Positions 2,382-14,268 of a stretch of DNA of 32,780 bases are shown one piece after another (positions within the stretch are counted from its first letter, which is position 1; every line of letters begins with the position of its first letter). The notes beneath the pieces were generated by a model that had not been told where the DNA came from, did no database searches, and saw only the letters and a program-made list of their open reading frames with translations. Location of the stretch: the NCBI GenBank assembly GCA_946623125.1, contig CAMOQR010000015.1, positions 1-32,780 of the forward strand, given 5' to 3'. The position numbers were made by a program, and so were the translations under genes. The stretch comes from an uncultured Caryophanales bacterium (GTDB lineage: Bacteria > Bacillota_I > Bacilli_A > RF39 > UBA660).

Positions 2382-3308
2382 ATGAAAACAATCTACTATG
2401 ATTTAAAACTAGAAGCAATCAATTTAAGAATGCATCAAATTCGCCACTTAAAAGAATTAAGACTTCCAAAAGGAACTTTTAACAACGAAGCATTAATGTT
2501 AATATTAAATAAAAAATATAGAACCTCAGATGGAAAAAGAATTTTGTTCAAGTATTTAGATGCTCAAGATGATGCTCGTCTAATGACAAGTAAAGAAAAA
2601 ACACTAGCATACTTAAATGGGTCAAGTTATAAGAAAATAAAACCATTAATTATTCCAGAATATATTGTAAAAGTAGATTCTAAACCAGCAGGATTTGCAA
2701 TGCCATTAGTTGAAAATCATAAAAATTTAGGAATATTACTAGAATCGCATAAGGTTTCCATGAAAAAAAAGAAAGAATATTTAATTATGCTTGGTAAATT
2801 AATTGATGAAGTGCAAAGAGTAGATGAAAAACACAATTTTTCTTTTTCTGACTTAAATGAATATAATTTTATCATTAATCAAGAAGGAAAAATGAACGCC
2901 ATAGACTTAGACAGTGCATATATTGATGGTATTGATGGAATAAATCCTCCAGAATTATCTCTTTATCTACATAAAAATAAAAATTTAAGAGGATTTAAGG
3001 ACAAATACCCACGAACCTCATCCGGAATTGTAATACCAAATCAAAATAGCGATCTATACTGTTATAATATGATTATTTTAAGCCTACTTGCAGAAGAATA
3101 TGTTCACAAAATAGATATGAATCTTTTTTATCAATATTTAGAATATTTAGAATTAGTTGGAGTACCAAAAGAGTTAATTGAGACTTGGTTTAATTTATAT
3201 TCGAAAAAGAAAAATGATAACCCAGAAAAATATATAGCAGAAATTCCAGATGATATTTTAAAATATTCTAGATTTGAAACATTTCAAAAAGTAAAAACAT
3301 CAAATTAA
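2382..3308 (+). CDS. Protein-kinase-fold protein of unknown substrate
   Basis: The 308-residue protein has the order of motifs of the protein kinase/aminoglycoside phosphotransferase fold. A beta-strand lysine (K57 in LFKYLD) is followed by a hinge-like strand 'AGFAMPLVEN'. The catalytic loop is 'FSDLNEYNFII', with D157 and N162 spaced as in HRDxxxxN. The metal-binding strand is 'AIDLDS' (D175, in the place of DFG). Helix-F-like 'NSDLYCYNMIILSLL' follows. The loop lacks the usual HR and the catalytic lysine (Asn instead), so it may be an atypical kinase, a small-molecule kinase or a pseudokinase. No membrane segment or sensor domain is present. It has its own promoter; RBS GGTGATAAT supports the ATG. 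Placement after yebC and before ruvA gives no firm clue to its role. Confidence 0.6.
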   Translation: MKTIYYDLKLEAINLRMHQIRHLKELRLPKGTFNNEALMLILNKKYRTSDGKRILFKYLDAQDDARLMTSKEKTLAYLNGSSYKKIKPLIIPEYIVKVDSKPAGFAMPLVENHKNLGILLESHKVSMKKKKEYLIMLGKLIDEVQRVDEKHNFSFSDLNEYNFIINQEGKMNAIDLDSAYIDGIDGINPPELSLYLHKNKNLRGFKDKYPRTSSGIVIPNQNSDLYCYNMIILSLLAEEYVHKIDMNLFYQYLEYLELVGVPKELIETWFNLYSKKKNDNPEKYIAEIPDDILKYSRFETFQKVKTSN

Positions 3309-5331: not shown

Positions 5332-5340
5332 TGATATAAT
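5332..5340 (+). promoter_or_regulatory. Extended -10 element of queA
   Basis: TGATATAAT directly follows the ruvB terminator. The -35 position (5312-5317) falls in the terminator's 3' arm and is a poor match. An in-frame ATG at 5339 is part of this element, not a start codon. Confidence 0.6.
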
Positions 5341-5362
5341 GAACCATAAATGGAGGGATACC

Positions 5363-6397
5363 ATGAAAGTAGAAGAATTTGATTATGAATTACCAGAAGA
5401 GTTGATTGCGCAAACACCACTTGAAAAAAGAGATGAATCAAGATTAATGGTTTTAGATAAAAAAACAGGAGAAATAGAACATAAAAAATTCTATAATATA
5501 ATTGATTATTTAAATCCAGGAGATACCTTAGTATTAAATAATTCTAAAGTATTACCTGCCAGATTAATTGGAGTAAAAGAAGAGACAAATGCAGTAATAG
5601 AAATATTACTTTTAAAAAATATAGAAAAAGAAGTATGGGAATGTCTCGTAAAACCTGCAAGAAGAATTAAAGTAGGTACAGTGATTTCTTTTGGAAATGG
5701 TAAATTAAAGGCAAAATGTGTAAAAGAAGAAGAGGAAGGAATTAGACATTTAGAACTAATCTATGATGGAATTCTATTAGAAATATTAGAAGAATTAGGA
5801 ACAATGCCACTACCTCCTTATATTCATGAAAAATTAAAGGATCAATCAAGATATCAAACAGTATATGCAAAAGAAGTTGGAAGCGCCGCAGCCCCAACAG
5901 CAGGACTACATTTTACAAATGAATTACTTGAAAAAATTAAAAAGAAAGGTGTAAATATTGCCTATATTACATTACATGTAGGACTTGGAACATTCCGTCC
6001 AGTATCCGTTGAAAAAGTAGAAGATCATGAAATGCACAGTGAATACTATATGATGGACAAAGAAACAGCAAATCTTTTAACACAAACAAAAAAGAATCAT
6101 AAAAGAATCATTGCAGTAGGTACGACTAGTACAAGAACTCTTGAAACCATTATGAAAAAATATCATAAATTTCAAGAATGTAGTGGTTGGACCAATATCT
6201 TTATCTACCCAGGATATGAGTTTAGTGCAATTGATTGTTTAATTACAAACTTCCATCTACCAAAATCAACCTTAGTGATGTTAGTTTCTTCCTTAGCCGG
6301 AAAAGACAATATTTTAAATGCATACCAAGAAGCAATCAAAGAAAAATATAGATTCTTCTCTTTTGGAGATGCAATGTTTATTAAAGAAGAGAAATAA
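5363..6397 (+). CDS. queA: tRNA preQ1(34) S-adenosylmethionine ribosyltransferase-isomerase QueA
   Basis: QueA transfers and isomerises the ribosyl group of SAM onto preQ1 at position 34 of tRNA, making epoxyqueuosine. The 344 residues match the family throughout: '[27 protein letters not shown]', '[17 protein letters not shown]', '[13 protein letters not shown]', '[12 protein letters not shown]', 'EYYMMD', '[11 protein letters not shown]' and '[22 protein letters not shown]'. The start is ATG 5363, with GGAGG 6 bases upstream. The in-frame ATG at 5339 lies inside the promoter -10 and has no RBS. Its usual partner tgt is present but 6.7 kb downstream, beyond two inserted genes. Confidence 0.96.
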
Positions 6398-6465: not shown

Positions 6466-9400
6466 ATGATAAAAATAAGAAACAAAAAAAGTATTGTTTT
6501 AGCATTTATTTGTATATTGATTTTATTTTTATTTCTTTTTTTTCGTAATAGTTTTGCTATACCAATAGATGAAAATGATGTAGAAGTAAATCCTAAAACA
6601 ACTTTAAAATATTTTTTAACCGTATCTTATGATGGAATTGATTCTGCTGGTACAAATTCAGAAACAGCAGAAGTAACAGAAATAAAAAGTGGACTTTTAG
6701 AAGTAGAAGATAGAATACCAGAAGGATTAGAATTTTTGGATTTTGAAACAACATCAAATGGAAGAATTGGTGCAATAGAAGAAGATAGTGGAAACGCATG
6801 TATTGGTATGGTAGTAGATGATACAAAAGAAAGTTCCTATACAGAAGGAAAATGGAATGAGAATAATACCGAATATACATATCATGGACTTCACTATAAT
6901 GCAGAAACAAAAACAGTTCATTTTAAAGTAAAAAATCTAAGGGCAGGATGTAAATTAACAGTAGGAGTTGTAACCAAAACTCCTGAAATAGATGATCCAG
7001 AAACAGAAAGAGTAGAAACAAGAAGAGACTTTTATAACTTTGCTACCGGAAAAGAAAGAACGTTAACGAATCATTCCAATACTGTTCATGTATTTATGGG
7101 AAATGATGAAGAAACATTATATAATGTATCATACCAATATAGTGGAACAGTACCAAGAAATGCGCCACAACTTCCTCAAACAATTTCATATGCCAAAGAT
7201 GAAAAAGTAGGAATTATTCAAGATATGAATATTGAAGGATATGAATTTAGTGGTTGGACAACAAATGATGTAGCAATATCTAATAATTCTTTTAATATGC
7301 CAGAAAGAAATGTCGTTCTAACAGGTTCATTTACAGAAAAACCAAAAAAACAAGTAAACTACCAAATAGTAGGAGAACAACCAGAAAACTACGTAATCCC
7401 AAGACAAAAAGAATACTATGTTGGAGAAAATGTAGAAATAAAAGATTTAAAAAAAGATAGTAAATTAAGTGGATATAAGTTTTCAGGATGGGAATCAGAA
7501 GATGTAGAAATAACAGATGATTATGATTTTATAATGCCGGATTATAATGTTACATTAACTGGAAGATTTGAGAAAATAGAATATAAAGTATATTATACTT
7601 TTAATGAATCAATGTGGATTCCAGACCAAGAACTATACTTACCAGAAGCAAGAGTATATGAACCAGGAGAAATAGTACATCTAGAAACAATAGAAAATGA
7701 ACCAGAAGGATATAAATTTGTAGGATGGTTACATGAAGATAATTTTAGAATGCCGGAAGAAGATGTAACTATATATGGAGAATGGAAATACTATTATGGA
7801 GAATTTGAACCACAAATAGAAAAAGAAATACTAAATCCAAAAGAATACTATAATGTAGGAGATCAAGTAGAATTTAAAATAACAATAAGAAATCCTTCAG
7901 AATATAATTTATATGATGTAATAGTAGAAGAAGAAAGCAAAAATTCACTGCTAGAAGATCCACCAAATTCAGAAGCAGAACCATCTTTTTATGAAAAGCC
8001 ATCTGATCATATCGGATTAATCCATTATATAGAAAGTAATACCAGTAAAGAATTAAAAGCCTTTTATACCATAACGGAAGAAGATCCATCACTAATTGAA
8101 AGTGTATCAAGTATACAAGGAGCACAAGCAGATTATTATGGTGTAGATATGGTAGAAAAAGACTATAACGCAAAAGTTCAATTCAAAACTCAACCGAAAA
8201 TCATCATATGTAGTGAAAGTTCAAATACAGATAAAAAAGATATTTTTGAATATAACATAACTAATACGAGAACAAAAGAAAAAGATGTATTAGAAGTATT
8301 AGAATCAGAATGTAAACAAATAATACTAGAACCAGGAGAATATCAGTTAGAAGAAAAACTTCCAAACAAATTATATAATCTAGAAGATATAATAGGACCA
8401 ATTTCAATAGACAATAAAATAATAACAATAGATGCAGGAGAAGAATATAAAATAATATATAGACATCGATATAAGATTGCATCAATAGTAAACCCATTAA
8501 CAAAATTTAATATATTTCCAATTTTTATAACGGCAATTCTATTAGTATTATTAGAAGTAATAAATGTATATACATTTATAAGAAAGAAAGACACAAATCA
8601 ATTAAAAGAAAAAATGTTAAGTATCATAAAAACAAAAAAAGCCAAAAAAGTATTGACAATATTAGTAATAGTATTAACAGTTATATTAAGAATAACTATG
8701 ATGTATAAATATGAAAAATATACATCCAAAGAATCCATTAAAAGATTCTTAGAAGAAAATGGAATTTATTCAGAAGAAAAAAGAGAGGTAGAAATATCAT
8801 CAAATGACTATGATAACCCATCATCATGGAAAATAAAGAAAAAAGCAGAATGGATTTCAAAAGATAAAGTAAAAATAACATTTGATGTGAAATCAGTATT
8901 AAAAGAGAACGAAAACAAAAAAAAGAAAGATATTATCCTTGCAATAGATACATCAGGTTCTATGAATGGAAAAAAGTTAGAAAAAGCAATCAATGACTCC
9001 AAAGAATTAATTGAATTTTTATTAGATAATGATCCGGAAAATCGATTTGTGATTGTTACATTCAATGAATCTGCAACGAATTATCCACCATATTTCACAA
9101 GTAATAAAGAAGAGTTAATAGAGATATTAAGTTGTATAGATTATGGATATGGTAATACAAGTTATACGGATGCATTAGATAGTATTTATTCGTTATTAAG
9201 TGATGAAGAAAATCAAACTGAATACGGAGAAGATAGAGAATTAATAACGTTGTTTTTAACAGATGGATATCCAAATGAAAGAACCTCTTCTCAAGCAGGT
9301 AAATATAAATTATTAAAAGATAAATATCCATTTATGTCTATCAATGGAATTCAATATGAAATGGGAATTACTATTATAGAAGATTTAAAAAAGGTAACAG

Positions 9401-11997
9401 ATATACAATTTGTAGCCAATCAAAACAATTTAAAAAACGTATTAATAGAAGCAGCAGTAAACCCAATAAAATATGAAAGCTTTAAAATAACAGATTATAT
9501 TAATGATGAATATTTTAATATTACATCAGAAAATGATATTCGAGTAAGTAATTTAACAAGTTATCAATTAAAACAAGAAGGGAAAACCCCAATCATAGAA
9601 TGGACATTTGACGAGGACACATATGCAACAGGAGGAGAAAGAACATTATCCTTTATTTTAAAACTAGAAGACAAATATTCTCATAAAGATGGATTTGTCC
9701 CAACCAATAAAAAAGAGATAATAACATATAAATTACCAAGTGAAGAACAACAAACAATAGAAAGCAAACAAACACCAGTATTAAAAACAAGATATCACAT
9801 ACATTATCAATTAAATCTCCCTTCAAATTGTCAAATTGAAGCCATACCAAGCCAAAGTAGTTTTATTGGAAATATCGTAGATATGGGAGAAAAAGAACTA
9901 TATTGTGAAGGATACGTATTTAAAGGATGGGAAATAAATGATGATGATTATGTAGGACTTGAAATTGTAAACAAGGATATGTTTATAATGCCAGGAAAAG
10001 ATGTAAGAGTAACAGCAACCTGGGGCAAATATAAAATCAACAAGACAACGGATGGAAGGGTTGAAGGAGTAGAAACAAGATTATATGACGTATTAAAAAA
10101 TGAAGCATTATCCAATGGATTAGCCAAAGAATATGAAGACGAACATCAAGATAGTATAGATGAATCCAAATCAACAGAAAAAGTATATCATTGGTATGCC
10201 AAGAATTATGAGGATGGAAATGCGATACTTAACAAAAATAATGTTATTTTTGCAAATCGTTGTTGGCAAATGATAAGAACAACCGATACCGGTGGAGTAA
10301 AAATGATATATAATGGAGAACCAGAAAATGGAAAGTGTTTAAATACAAGAGGCAAACATGTAGAAAAAAGTGCTGAAACAATGGATTTAAATAACACAAA
10401 CTATTACTATTTTGACTCCTACAAATATGAAAATGATTTGTTAAAAATTGAAGGTGAACAAAAACAAATAAATTTTGATGAATCAACAAAAGATGAATTA
10501 ATAGGAAAATATACCTGTAAATATAATTCAACTACAACAAGCTGTGCTAATATTTATGAAATAAAATCATTTGATGGAACGATAGCAAGTATGGTTGAAT
10601 ATTCACTAATATATAACTATGCGGAAATAGGAAAATCATCATCAGAAATAGGATACATGAAAAATGATACAGTTTCTTATGAAATTGATAGAAAATATAC
10701 CAACTCCAAAACAAAATATAAAATATCTAAAGCCACACGTTTCAAAGAAAATCCGTGGGATGCAATGGATTTTTATTACTCTAATACTGTAACAGAAACA
10801 GAAAATGGAATGAAATTGGTAGACCCAATAAAATATGATGCAAGTACAACGAATTATTCCGATTTGATTGGAAAATATACAATACTCGAAGAGGATAATA
10901 GTTCAGAGAATAGTTTTGGTTCTGTATATTATGTTGCAAATGCTGAAAAAACGGAAATTGATTATATTTATATCAAAAAAACAGAGGATTTAACAAAAAA
11001 AATATATTATGGTTCAAGTATTACATATAATGATAATGGAACTTTTACAATAAATGATTCAAAAGAAATGAGTCTGATAGATTATTATAGTAACTATTCA
11101 AAATTAAATAAACAATATGTTTGCTTTAACGAGGAAGAAACAACTTGCCAAAATATAATATTTATTATATCAAGTAATAATTTAGAATATAAATATACAA
11201 CTCCAATTCTATTTTCAAATTCATTTACATATTCTGATGGAAAATATCACCTTAATAAAGAAACACTTAAATACTATGTAAATGCAGAAGGATTTACTTT
11301 AGGAAAATCACATTATACATGTATGAATTTATCGACAGAATGTGAAACAGTTAATTTTGCCACCCAATTAAACCGAGGAACACAATTTAGTTATATAACA
11401 ATGGAAAATGGTAATGGAATAAATGAATTTATTAATCAAACCTTAATCGATTATAAAAACACATCGGATTCATTGATTAAAAAAACAATTGAAGATTGGT
11501 TTGAAATAGAAATGAAAGATTATAAGAATTACTTAGAAGATGTAATTTATTGCAATGATAAAAGAGTAAAATCTCTAGGTGCTTTTTCAGAAAACTCATA
11601 TTTTTATTCTTCAGATGGATATTTTAAAGGAGAGATTGAATTTGACTTAGATAAAGATATAAAATGTAACCGAAGTGTTGATAGTTATAGTGTGAATAAT
11701 CCAGATGCCAAAATAAAATATCCGGTAGGACTAATGACATATCAAGAAGCCTTATTGATGAATAGTAGTCAGATAACCAGAACTGGTTCCGCCTATTGGT
11801 TTATGACAGCAAAAACAACGACATATCACCTTTTTTCAGGTTACGCAACAGGAAATAGTGGAAGTTATACTTATCCCGGAGCATCATATGGAGGAAATTT
11901 AGGTGTCCGTCCAGTCATCTCTCTAAAACCCGGAACTCTTTATATAGATGGTGATGGAAGTATGAAAAATCCATATGTAATAGAGATAAATGATTAA
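6466..11997 (+). CDS. Giant cell-surface protein with vWA domain, InlB-like repeats and mid-chain membrane hairpin
   Basis: The protein has 1843 residues. Residues 8-27 form a signal anchor or signal peptide ending in SFA. The first arm has a DUF11/pilin-like region (about 37-205), three InlB/Flg_new-like repeats with 'GYxFxGW...MPxxxVTxxG' (226-289, 296-370, 373-442), another DUF11-like segment (about 447-560) and a Cna-B-like segment (573-670). Two hydrophobic helices (683-705, 729-746) flank a short basic loop. The second arm has a vWA domain (about 820-1000; MIDAS DTSGS 828-832, T898, TDG with D933), a fourth InlB-like repeat (1109-1189), a 'CWQMIRTTDTGG' module and cysteine-pair repeats (1346-1640). 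It ends in a domain closing 'GVRPVISLKPG', seen in other Firmicutes surface proteins. No LPXTG motif or C-terminal anchor is present. Adhesion is the likely role, by inference. Confidence 0.8.
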   Translation: MIKIRNKKSIVLAFICILILFLFLFFRNSFAIPIDENDVEVNPKTTLKYFLTVSYDGIDSAGTNSETAEVTEIKSGLLEVEDRIPEGLEFLDFETTSNGRIGAIEEDSGNACIGMVVDDTKESSYTEGKWNENNTEYTYHGLHYNAETKTVHFKVKNLRAGCKLTVGVVTKTPEIDDPETERVETRRDFYNFATGKERTLTNHSNTVHVFMGNDEETLYNVSYQYSGTVPRNAPQLPQTISYAKDEKVGIIQDMNIEGYEFSGWTTNDVAISNNSFNMPERNVVLTGSFTEKPKKQVNYQIVGEQPENYVIPRQKEYYVGENVEIKDLKKDSKLSGYKFSGWESEDVEITDDYDFIMPDYNVTLTGRFEKIEYKVYYTFNESMWIPDQELYLPEARVYEPGEIVHLETIENEPEGYKFVGWLHEDNFRMPEEDVTIYGEWKYYYGEFEPQIEKEILNPKEYYNVGDQVEFKITIRNPSEYNLYDVIVEEESKNSLLEDPPNSEAEPSFYEKPSDHIGLIHYIESNTSKELKAFYTITEEDPSLIESVSSIQGAQADYYGVDMVEKDYNAKVQFKTQPKIIICSESSNTDKKDIFEYNITNTRTKEKDVLEVLESECKQIILEPGEYQLEEKLPNKLYNLEDIIGPISIDNKIITIDAGEEYKIIYRHRYKIASIVNPLTKFNIFPIFITAILLVLLEVINVYTFIRKKDTNQLKEKMLSIIKTKKAKKVLTILVIVLTVILRITMMYKYEKYTSKESIKRFLEENGIYSEEKREVEISSNDYDNPSSWKIKKKAEWISKDKVKITFDVKSVLKENENKKKKDIILAIDTSGSMNGKKLEKAINDSKELIEFLLDNDPENRFVIVTFNESATNYPPYFTSNKEELIEILSCIDYGYGNTSYTDALDSIYSLLSDEENQTEYGEDRELITLFLTDGYPNERTSSQAGKYKLLKDKYPFMSINGIQYEMGITIIEDLKKVTDIQFVANQNNLKNVLIEAAVNPIKYESFKITDYINDEYFNITSENDIRVSNLTSYQLKQEGKTPIIEWTFDEDTYATGGERTLSFILKLEDKYSHKDGFVPTNKKEIITYKLPSEEQQTIESKQTPVLKTRYHIHYQLNLPSNCQIEAIPSQSSFIGNIVDMGEKELYCEGYVFKGWEINDDDYVGLEIVNKDMFIMPGKDVRVTATWGKYKINKTTDGRVEGVETRLYDVLKNEALSNGLAKEYEDEHQDSIDESKSTEKVYHWYAKNYEDGNAILNKNNVIFANRCWQMIRTTDTGGVKMIYNGEPENGKCLNTRGKHVEKSAETMDLNNTNYYYFDSYKYENDLLKIEGEQKQINFDESTKDELIGKYTCKYNSTTTSCANIYEIKSFDGTIASMVEYSLIYNYAEIGKSSSEIGYMKNDTVSYEIDRKYTNSKTKYKISKATRFKENPWDAMDFYYSNTVTETENGMKLVDPIKYDASTTNYSDLIGKYTILEEDNSSENSFGSVYYVANAEKTEIDYIYIKKTEDLTKKIYYGSSITYNDNGTFTINDSKEMSLIDYYSNYSKLNKQYVCFNEEETTCQNIIFIISSNNLEYKYTTPILFSNSFTYSDGKYHLNKETLKYYVNAEGFTLGKSHYTCMNLSTECETVNFATQLNRGTQFSYITMENGNGINEFINQTLIDYKNTSDSLIKKTIEDWFEIEMKDYKNYLEDVIYCNDKRVKSLGAFSENSYFYSSDGYFKGEIEFDLDKDIKCNRSVDSYSVNNPDAKIKYPVGLMTYQEALLMNSSQITRTGSAYWFMTAKTTTYHLFSGYATGNSGSYTYPGASYGGNLGVRPVISLKPGTLYIDGDGSMKNPYVIEIND
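8512..8703 (+). other. Predicted membrane hairpin inside the giant surface protein
   Basis: Residues 683-705 (IFPIFITAILLVLLEVINVYTF) and 729-746 (VLTILVIVLTVILRITMM) are the only strong hydrophobic helices after the N-terminus. The 23 residues between them are Lys-rich, which by the positive-inside rule places the loop in the cytoplasm and both long arms outside. The second half from Met717 (8614) looks like the N-terminus of a separate anchored protein, suggesting an old gene fusion; only a weak RBS precedes that ATG. Confidence 0.6.
10501..11350 (+). repeat. Degenerate protein repeats with cysteine pairs
   Basis: Four related segments start near residues 1346, 1466, 1546 and 1612, with the pattern '(I/L)GKYTC-x8-C-x-NIYEI'. 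Cysteine pairs sit at 1351/1360, 1553/1561 and 1619/1626; the second copy (LIGKYTILEEDN) has lost both. The spacing of each pair suits a local disulfide outside the cell. The repeats are visible only at the protein level. Confidence 0.55.
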
Positions 11998-12000
11998 AGA

Positions 12001-12027
12001 AGATTAAATTGACTTTAATCTTTTTTT
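12001..12027 (+). terminator. Terminator of the giant surface-protein gene
   Basis: AGATTAAA (12001-12008) pairs with TTTAATCT (12014-12021) around TTGAC and ends in T7. The loop is also the start of the next promoter. Confidence 0.85.
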
Positions 12028-12037
12028 CTGTTATAAT
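12009..12037 (+). promoter_or_regulatory. Promoter of the Gre-like gene
   Basis: TTGACT (12009-12014), a 17-base spacer and TGTTATAAT (-10 at 12032-12037) form a near-perfect extended promoter. The -35 occupies the loop of the preceding terminator. RBS AAGGGG precedes the ATG. Confidence 0.75.
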
Positions 12038-12068
12038 AGAGAAACATTTTGCTTAAGGGGGATAAAAG

Positions 12069-13052
12069 ATGAAATTAGTTGCAGAGCAAATAAAAGTATT
12101 AAGAGAGAGAAAAAAAGAATTAGAAGAAAGCATTAAACATTATAGAGAGGGTGCTCAAGAAAGAGAAAAAACATCTATTGATGGAGTAGGATTACCATTC
12201 TTAGGAGATTTTCAAGAAGATATGGCATATGCTAATACTAGAAGAGAATATCATGAAATAGAAAAACAATTAGGGCAGGCAGAGTTTGTTACAGAAAGAA
12301 ATTATAATGCGGTTGATATTGGAACAGCATTCTACGTAAATTTTGGAGATGATGATAGAGAAAGACTAATGTTAATTGATGAAAATATCTCTAATGGTGG
12401 ATATAAATTAGTCTCAACAAAAAGTGATTTTGGTAAAGCCGTAATTGGTAAAAGAGAAGGGGAAACTGTCACTTATACGGTACAAGCAACAGGAAGAAAG
12501 CTTTCTTTAACAATAGATGAAATTGATACAATAAGAGAAAATTATGAACATTTTATTAGAGAGACAGAACAACATAATAGATTGTGTCATACAGCAAAAG
12601 AAGAATTAAGACAATTAAAGGAAAGTAATCCAGAAGAATATGCAAATCGTCACACAATATCAAAAAGTCAGTGGTATTTAGCAAATGAAGAATATGGAAA
12701 ATTTGGCAATCAAAGTAAATCTAGAGCAGATATAAAAAGAAAATCTTATTTAAGAGATATCCTTGCAAATGCAAAAATTGCTGAATTACCAAAAGATGAT
12801 ACAATTGGAATTGGTTCTAAAGTGGAAGTATTAATTACTGATGAAAATGGAAATACTAAAACAAAACAATTTGAATATATTAACCAAGCAATATCAACAG
12901 AATTAGAGTCACAATATGTAGAAAGAATAACAGCAGAAGGAAGATCATTATTTGGACTAAAAGCAAACGATACTTTTAAGATTAAACGTAAGAATAAACC
13001 AGCACTTATGGGAATAGTTTTATCAGTCAAAAATTATGATGTTGAATTAGGT

Positions 13053-13070
<18 letters not shown>
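12069..13070 (+). CDS. Tandem GreA/GreB-like protein (two Gre modules)
   Basis: The 333-residue protein appears to be two Gre-factor modules in tandem. Module 1 has an N-terminal coiled coil carrying 'GDFQEDMAY' (D47, E50), which aligns with the GDLSENAEY tip of GreA, where the acidic pair positions Mg2+ for RNA cleavage in stalled RNA polymerase. 'RREYHEIEKQLGQAEFV' and a GreA/B C-terminal FKBP-like domain (about 82-155; VDIGTAF ... SDFGKAVIGKREGETV) follow. Module 2 has a second charged helical pair (about 160-240) without the acidic tip, then another C-terminal-like domain (245-325; TIGIGSKVEV ... GRSLFGLKANDTF). The normal length for GreA is about 160. It may cleave nascent RNA, act as a scaffold, or compete with GreA in the RNAP secondary channel. 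It is monocistronic, between its own promoter and terminator. Confidence 0.65.

Positions 13071-14268
<1,198 letters not shown>

Follow-up and report, generated by a model that had tools for sequence, protein, structure and literature searches.

GreA and GreB consist of a coiled coil followed by an FKBP-like C-terminal domain. Gfh1 of Thermus, an anti-Gre factor, and Rv3788 of M. tuberculosis are non-cleaving paralogues found beside a working GreA; each has a single module, with acidic tip residues and without the full cleavage signature. To our knowledge, secondary-channel factors are single-headed, with one per polymerase. In MtbGre the tip Asp is essential and the S127E change abolishes RNA polymerase binding; Rv3788 does not support cleavage, and its missing Asn and Tyr were offered as the reason (PMC3132773). 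The coil of Rnk of E. coli does not extend as far as the active site, yet Rnk competes with Gre factors (PMC4598747).

We analysed a window of 32,780 nt from an uncultured Caryophanales bacterium (Table 1), in which an intact reading frame, with an ATG start and a ribosome-binding site just ahead, encodes two Gre-like modules in one chain. A sequence-only reading of this DNA had proposed a double Gre factor with one active and one blank tip, and called the tandem form unfamiliar; likewise, tandem Gre proteins were not described in any of the open-licence papers that our search covered.

Table 1. Features of the double Gre locus and its surroundings in the window
Feature	Position	Strand	Basis
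Double Gre-like protein, 333 aa (P0001)	12069..13070	+	ORF; PF01272 and TIGR01462 matches
Module 1 coiled-coil hairpin, residues 1-79, full GreA length	12069..12305	+	AF2 secondary structure; canonical GreA length comparison
Coil 1 tip region, residues 36-50 (D38, D47, E50)	12174..12218	+	
Module 1 Gre C-terminal domain, residues 81-153; docking serine S119 at 12423-12425	12309..12527	+	
Linker, conserved Y159, I163, R171	12528..12650	+	
Module 2 short hairpin, begins T-x-S-Q, no acidic tip	12651..12788	+	
Module 2 Gre C-terminal domain; docking position T288 at 12930-12932	12795..13034	+	
Short basic C-terminal tail EKRVK	13053..13067	+	
tgt, tRNA-guanine transglycosylase	13134..14258	+	PF01702 E 8e-159; synteny
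queA, upstream neighbour in the genus	5339..6397	+	
Promoter TTGACT-17 nt-TATAAT, extended -10 (11/12)	12009..12037	+	
Ribosome-binding site AAGGGGG	12055..12061	+	
Separate tgt promoter-like site TTGTGA-17-TATAAT, conserved intergenic stretch	13081..13109	+	

Both halves of the protein are Gre modules

The whole protein matched PF01272 (GreA_GreB C-terminal) with 40.4 bits against a cut-off of 26.9, the best stretch being residues 82-152, and NCBIfam greA (TIGR01462) matched both halves (E 9.4e-5 for the second). Module 2 alone gave a weak match to PF01272, below the cut-off (E 0.03-0.05). The same double form is present in 13 sister species; the 14 double-form orthologues were aligned and each half was searched as a profile. 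Against the PDB, the best match of module 1 was Gfh1 (E 4e-6) and the only credible matches of module 2 were Gfh1-type chains (E 0.0014). With hhalign, modules 1 and 2 reached 98.9% and 97.2% against canonical GreA, and 94% against each other. Taken one by one, 14/14 module-1 and 13/14 module-2 sequences matched PF01272. Profile matches of both halves were restricted to secondary-channel factors (GreA/Gfh1/GreB-type); the one to Rnk was weak (E 0.57) and concerned module 1 only, with none direct for module 2. The double architecture is thus borne out, and the profile matches of the second half dispose of the idea that it is not Gre-related. Chance fusion or an assembly artefact is ruled out by the 13 sister-species orthologues (26-48% identity) and by dN/dS values below 1.

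The S-x-x-G docking loop is present in both modules, which follow the coil-then-C-terminal-domain order of GreA and GreB. Unlike these, the protein has two modules per chain, a cleavage signature that is not conserved (see below) and no match to PF03449 (GreA_GreB_N): none of the 14 module-1 sequences matched this model, nor did anything in the window's own genome, even at E<=1. It also differs from Gfh1 and Rv3788 in being double.

A single-sequence AF2 model of all 333 residues had a mean pLDDT of 46.8 and was usable for residues 1-75 only. It gave coil 1 as a hairpin (helix 2-35, loop 36-45, helix 46-79; pLDDT mostly 57-91 there and poor elsewhere). When module 2 was modelled with one GreA the pLDDT was 34, and C-terminal domains were poorly modelled. 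Judged from its length and from low-confidence secondary structure, the hairpin of coil 2 has about 42 residues, where GreA has about 70. It would, as in Rnk, be too short for the active site; unlike Rnk, module 2 follows a long-coil module in the same chain. The second coil, a short hairpin lacking an acidic tip, is in keeping with the blank tip proposed for it. Basic C-terminal ends similar to EKRVK are found in most relatives.

Docking positions are kept while the coils diverge

The equivalents of MtbGre S127 are S119, invariant in 14/14 orthologues, and position 288, which is S or T in 14/14. In the wider family the docking serine and the S-x-x-G loop are kept in the first and last modules; in the middle modules of three-module relatives the serine is present in 3/8.

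The protein evolves fast. For the same species pairs, median identity was 40% for the double form, 75% for Tgt and 91% for canonical GreA. Its dN/dS was 0.32-0.51 versus 0.04-0.17 in tgt and queA (four pairs, with partial saturation at synonymous sites); it exceeded that of the flanking genes severalfold in the three closer pairs and was always below 1. In the closest pair (G028/G004), pN/pS was 0.14/0.52 and 0.18/0.44 for the two C-terminal domains, versus 0.33/0.33 and 0.40/0.59 for the two coils. Both C-terminal domains are therefore under purifying selection and change is mostly in the coils: the docks are conserved and the coils divergent.

A family with one, two or three modules, mostly next to tgt

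When 288 whole genomes of the order were searched by profile and the modules were then mapped, a fast-evolving bacterial family emerged that strings one, two or three Gre modules per protein; the E-values of the mapping come from a profile iterated on the same sequences, and an independent Pfam check was made on ten members. The order-level lineage has singles of 150-190 aa, doubles of about 330-350 aa and triples of 440-575 aa. Copies may also be grouped on one contig: four adjacent ORFs with eight modules in L126, two triples in L128, two doubles in L127 and two singles side by side in L125. In a tree of the modules (83 columns), canonical GreA was split from all other modules with support of 97/98; this tree does not resolve the number of doubling events. 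No spread beyond the order was seen: a phylum-wide sample of 392 genomes gave, outside the family, one 162-aa open frame and no double form. A related-locus search of genome contigs returned only a canonical GreA, and no relatives were matched in viral contigs.

Several loci carry altered copies. ORFs of 170 and 322 aa that overlap in L126 (6864-8293) may be a single three-module gene interrupted by a frameshift. In L050 (genome G008, 2679-3155), a 159-aa remnant has module 1 cut inside its C-terminal domain and fused to module 2, a double-to-single collapse. In L010 (genome G026), two in-frame TAA codons lie near the start of the double Gre gene and the rest of the orthologue is well kept, so that it may be either a decaying copy or a sequence error.

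Nearly all loci of the family lie directly upstream of tgt, in an order-wide search that made no use of tgt. Their other flank varies: it is occupied by ruvB-queA at most loci, by trmD/rimM at others and by murF at one. No tgt was found on the stretch retrieved for one murF-linked copy (L131), and a few paired or lone copies lie away from tgt (L122-L124). Those of two genus members, L122 (4914-6088) and L123 (2648-3807), are paired single Gre-like genes near genes resembling a guanylate kinase and a helix-turn-helix regulator. In many species of the same genus queA is followed directly by tgt, without a double Gre gene, which is therefore often gained or lost. In the window, a gene for an 1843-aa surface protein (VWA, InlB-type and Listeria-Bacteroides repeats; 6466-11997) is inserted between queA and the double Gre gene; it was not seen at this site in the sister loci examined.

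The promoter of the double Gre gene is near-consensus, lies 31 bases ahead of the start codon and is recognisable at 12/14 orthologues. An A+T-rich hairpin with a T-run behind it (12001-12028), which probably terminates the upstream gene, carries the -35 in its loop. The tgt promoter-like site lies just past the double Gre stop codon and is recognisable by eye in 12/14 aligned loci. Since promoter-like sites in the region were not more numerous than in shuffled sequence, the argument for these promoters is one of position and conservation. After the double Gre stop codon, most sister loci have a near-identical CTCTTTTTTTCTTGT (13071-13086 in the window), which overlaps the tgt promoter.

The persistent proximity of tgt, whichever gene lies upstream, raises the possibility of a repurposed Gre fold, in which the C-terminal domains would have targets other than RNA polymerase, such as each other, RNA or a tgt-linked partner, the protein being a modular scaffold. 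We consider this a minor possibility, though one of some weight. Very fast evolution, the accumulation of up to 8 modules per locus, the loss of the docking serine in middle modules and the basic C-terminal tails are all in its favour. It fits poorly with the retention of the serine and of the S-x-x-G loop in first and last modules, and with profile matches to secondary-channel factors only; moreover, a promoter-like site of its own precedes tgt in 12/14 aligned loci, so the two genes need not be functionally linked.

The cleavage signature is lost and GreA coexists

MAFFT pairs D47, E50 and Y54 with D41, E44 and Y48 of GreA, at the cost of a shift of about 8 residues; in an ungapped alignment D38 comes instead at the GreA D..E site, and position 38 is D or E in 13/14 orthologues. 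In the AF2 hairpin, D47 and E50 are at the start of helix 2. The acidic pair picked out by the sequence-only reading thus aligns with the GreA tip by MAFFT, but it does not do so without gaps, and it sits just after the tip of coil 1. The window protein itself has the D, E and Y of the D-x-x-E-N-x-x-Y signature. Among the 14 orthologues, D47 is retained in 11, E50 in 5, the RNA-contact Asn in none and the Tyr in 5; the full D, E, N, Y set occurs in 0/14, and the coil 1 tip is deleted in some. Other acidic residues near the tip (E33, D/E38) are conserved, so that with these and with D47, E50 and Y54 the window protein might still bind Mg2+.

Canonical GreA, with its GDLSENAEY tip, is encoded in 35/39 genomes of the genus, which rejects replacement of GreA as a general role, and in 11 of the 14 genomes with a double form. 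A survey for a separate normal greA therefore gave a positive answer in those 11 and a negative one in the assembly of the window itself (71% complete). In a relative, greA has a neighbour gene that is likewise missing from this assembly, so the missing greA fits its incompleteness. This coexistence, and the far faster evolution of the double form, argue indirectly that the protein is a regulator other than the usual cleavage factor, as had been suggested.

These data bear on whether the protein is a catalytically active Gre, with one working tip and a second head as anchor. The alignment of D47, E50 and Y54 with the GreA residues, the frequency of D47 and the missing greA in the window's own genome would agree with it. 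We nevertheless find it unlikely, given how rarely E50 and never the Asn are kept, the tip deletions, pN close to pS in coil 1, the presence of the usual GreA across the genus and the loss of the greA neighbour gene from the same assembly. The orthologues do not support the claim of one active tip: the signature is not conserved in them, and few parts of the protein change as fast as coil 1.

A proposed role as a non-cleaving, multi-headed secondary-channel factor

Because both modules are Gre, S119 and T288 are kept, the full signature is absent from all 14 orthologues and GreA coexists, we favour, with a probability of about 0.5, a non-cleaving, multi-headed Gre paralogue that works as a secondary-channel factor like Gfh1 and Rnk. 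A Gre fold, a docking C-terminal domain and a coexisting cleavage factor are found together in 11/14 genomes, the incomplete one of the window being outside this number. Module 1, with its long coil and C-terminal domain, would dock on the beta' rim helices of RNA polymerase; its coil would enter the secondary channel, compete with GreA and modulate or inhibit the active site. Module 2, a short Rnk-like hairpin with its own C-terminal domain, would be a second docking head that stops short of the active site and provides avidity or occupancy. RNA polymerase binding, its inhibition or modulation and avidity are thus what we infer from the conserved docks and altered coils. The lack of a PF03449 match, the loss of the serine in middle modules and the presence of D47, E50 and Y54 in the window protein, with further conserved acidic residues near the tip, count against this reading.

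Two further roles are very unlikely. A bridge between two RNA polymerases or clusters of them, for instance as a storage or stress form, would make use of two predicted docking-competent C-terminal domains in one chain and of the 4-8 modules per locus in some species, but single-module members exist and could bridge only by dimerisation. Hardly more probable is a diversifying decoy or guard against mobile elements that target the secondary channel: raised dN/dS relative to the flanking genes in the three closer pairs, coils near neutrality or diversifying and frequent gain, loss and module-number change are what it would produce, but no match was found in phages, plasmids, PHROGs or PADLOC, there are no defence neighbours and dN/dS stays below 1 throughout.

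Beyond the favoured non-cleaving paralogue, it is a doubtful idea that this one-, two- and three-headed family (up to 8 modules per locus) engages several polymerases simultaneously, or decorates the polymerase with rapidly diversifying secondary-channel inserts. If true, this would be a previously undescribed mode of polymerase control. The number of heads varies between sister species, the coils are diverse and the docks conserved: this would amount to a natural experiment on the capabilities of an isolated docking domain, and it would open a testable question of RNA polymerase stoichiometry in a large uncultured group of bacteria with small genomes.
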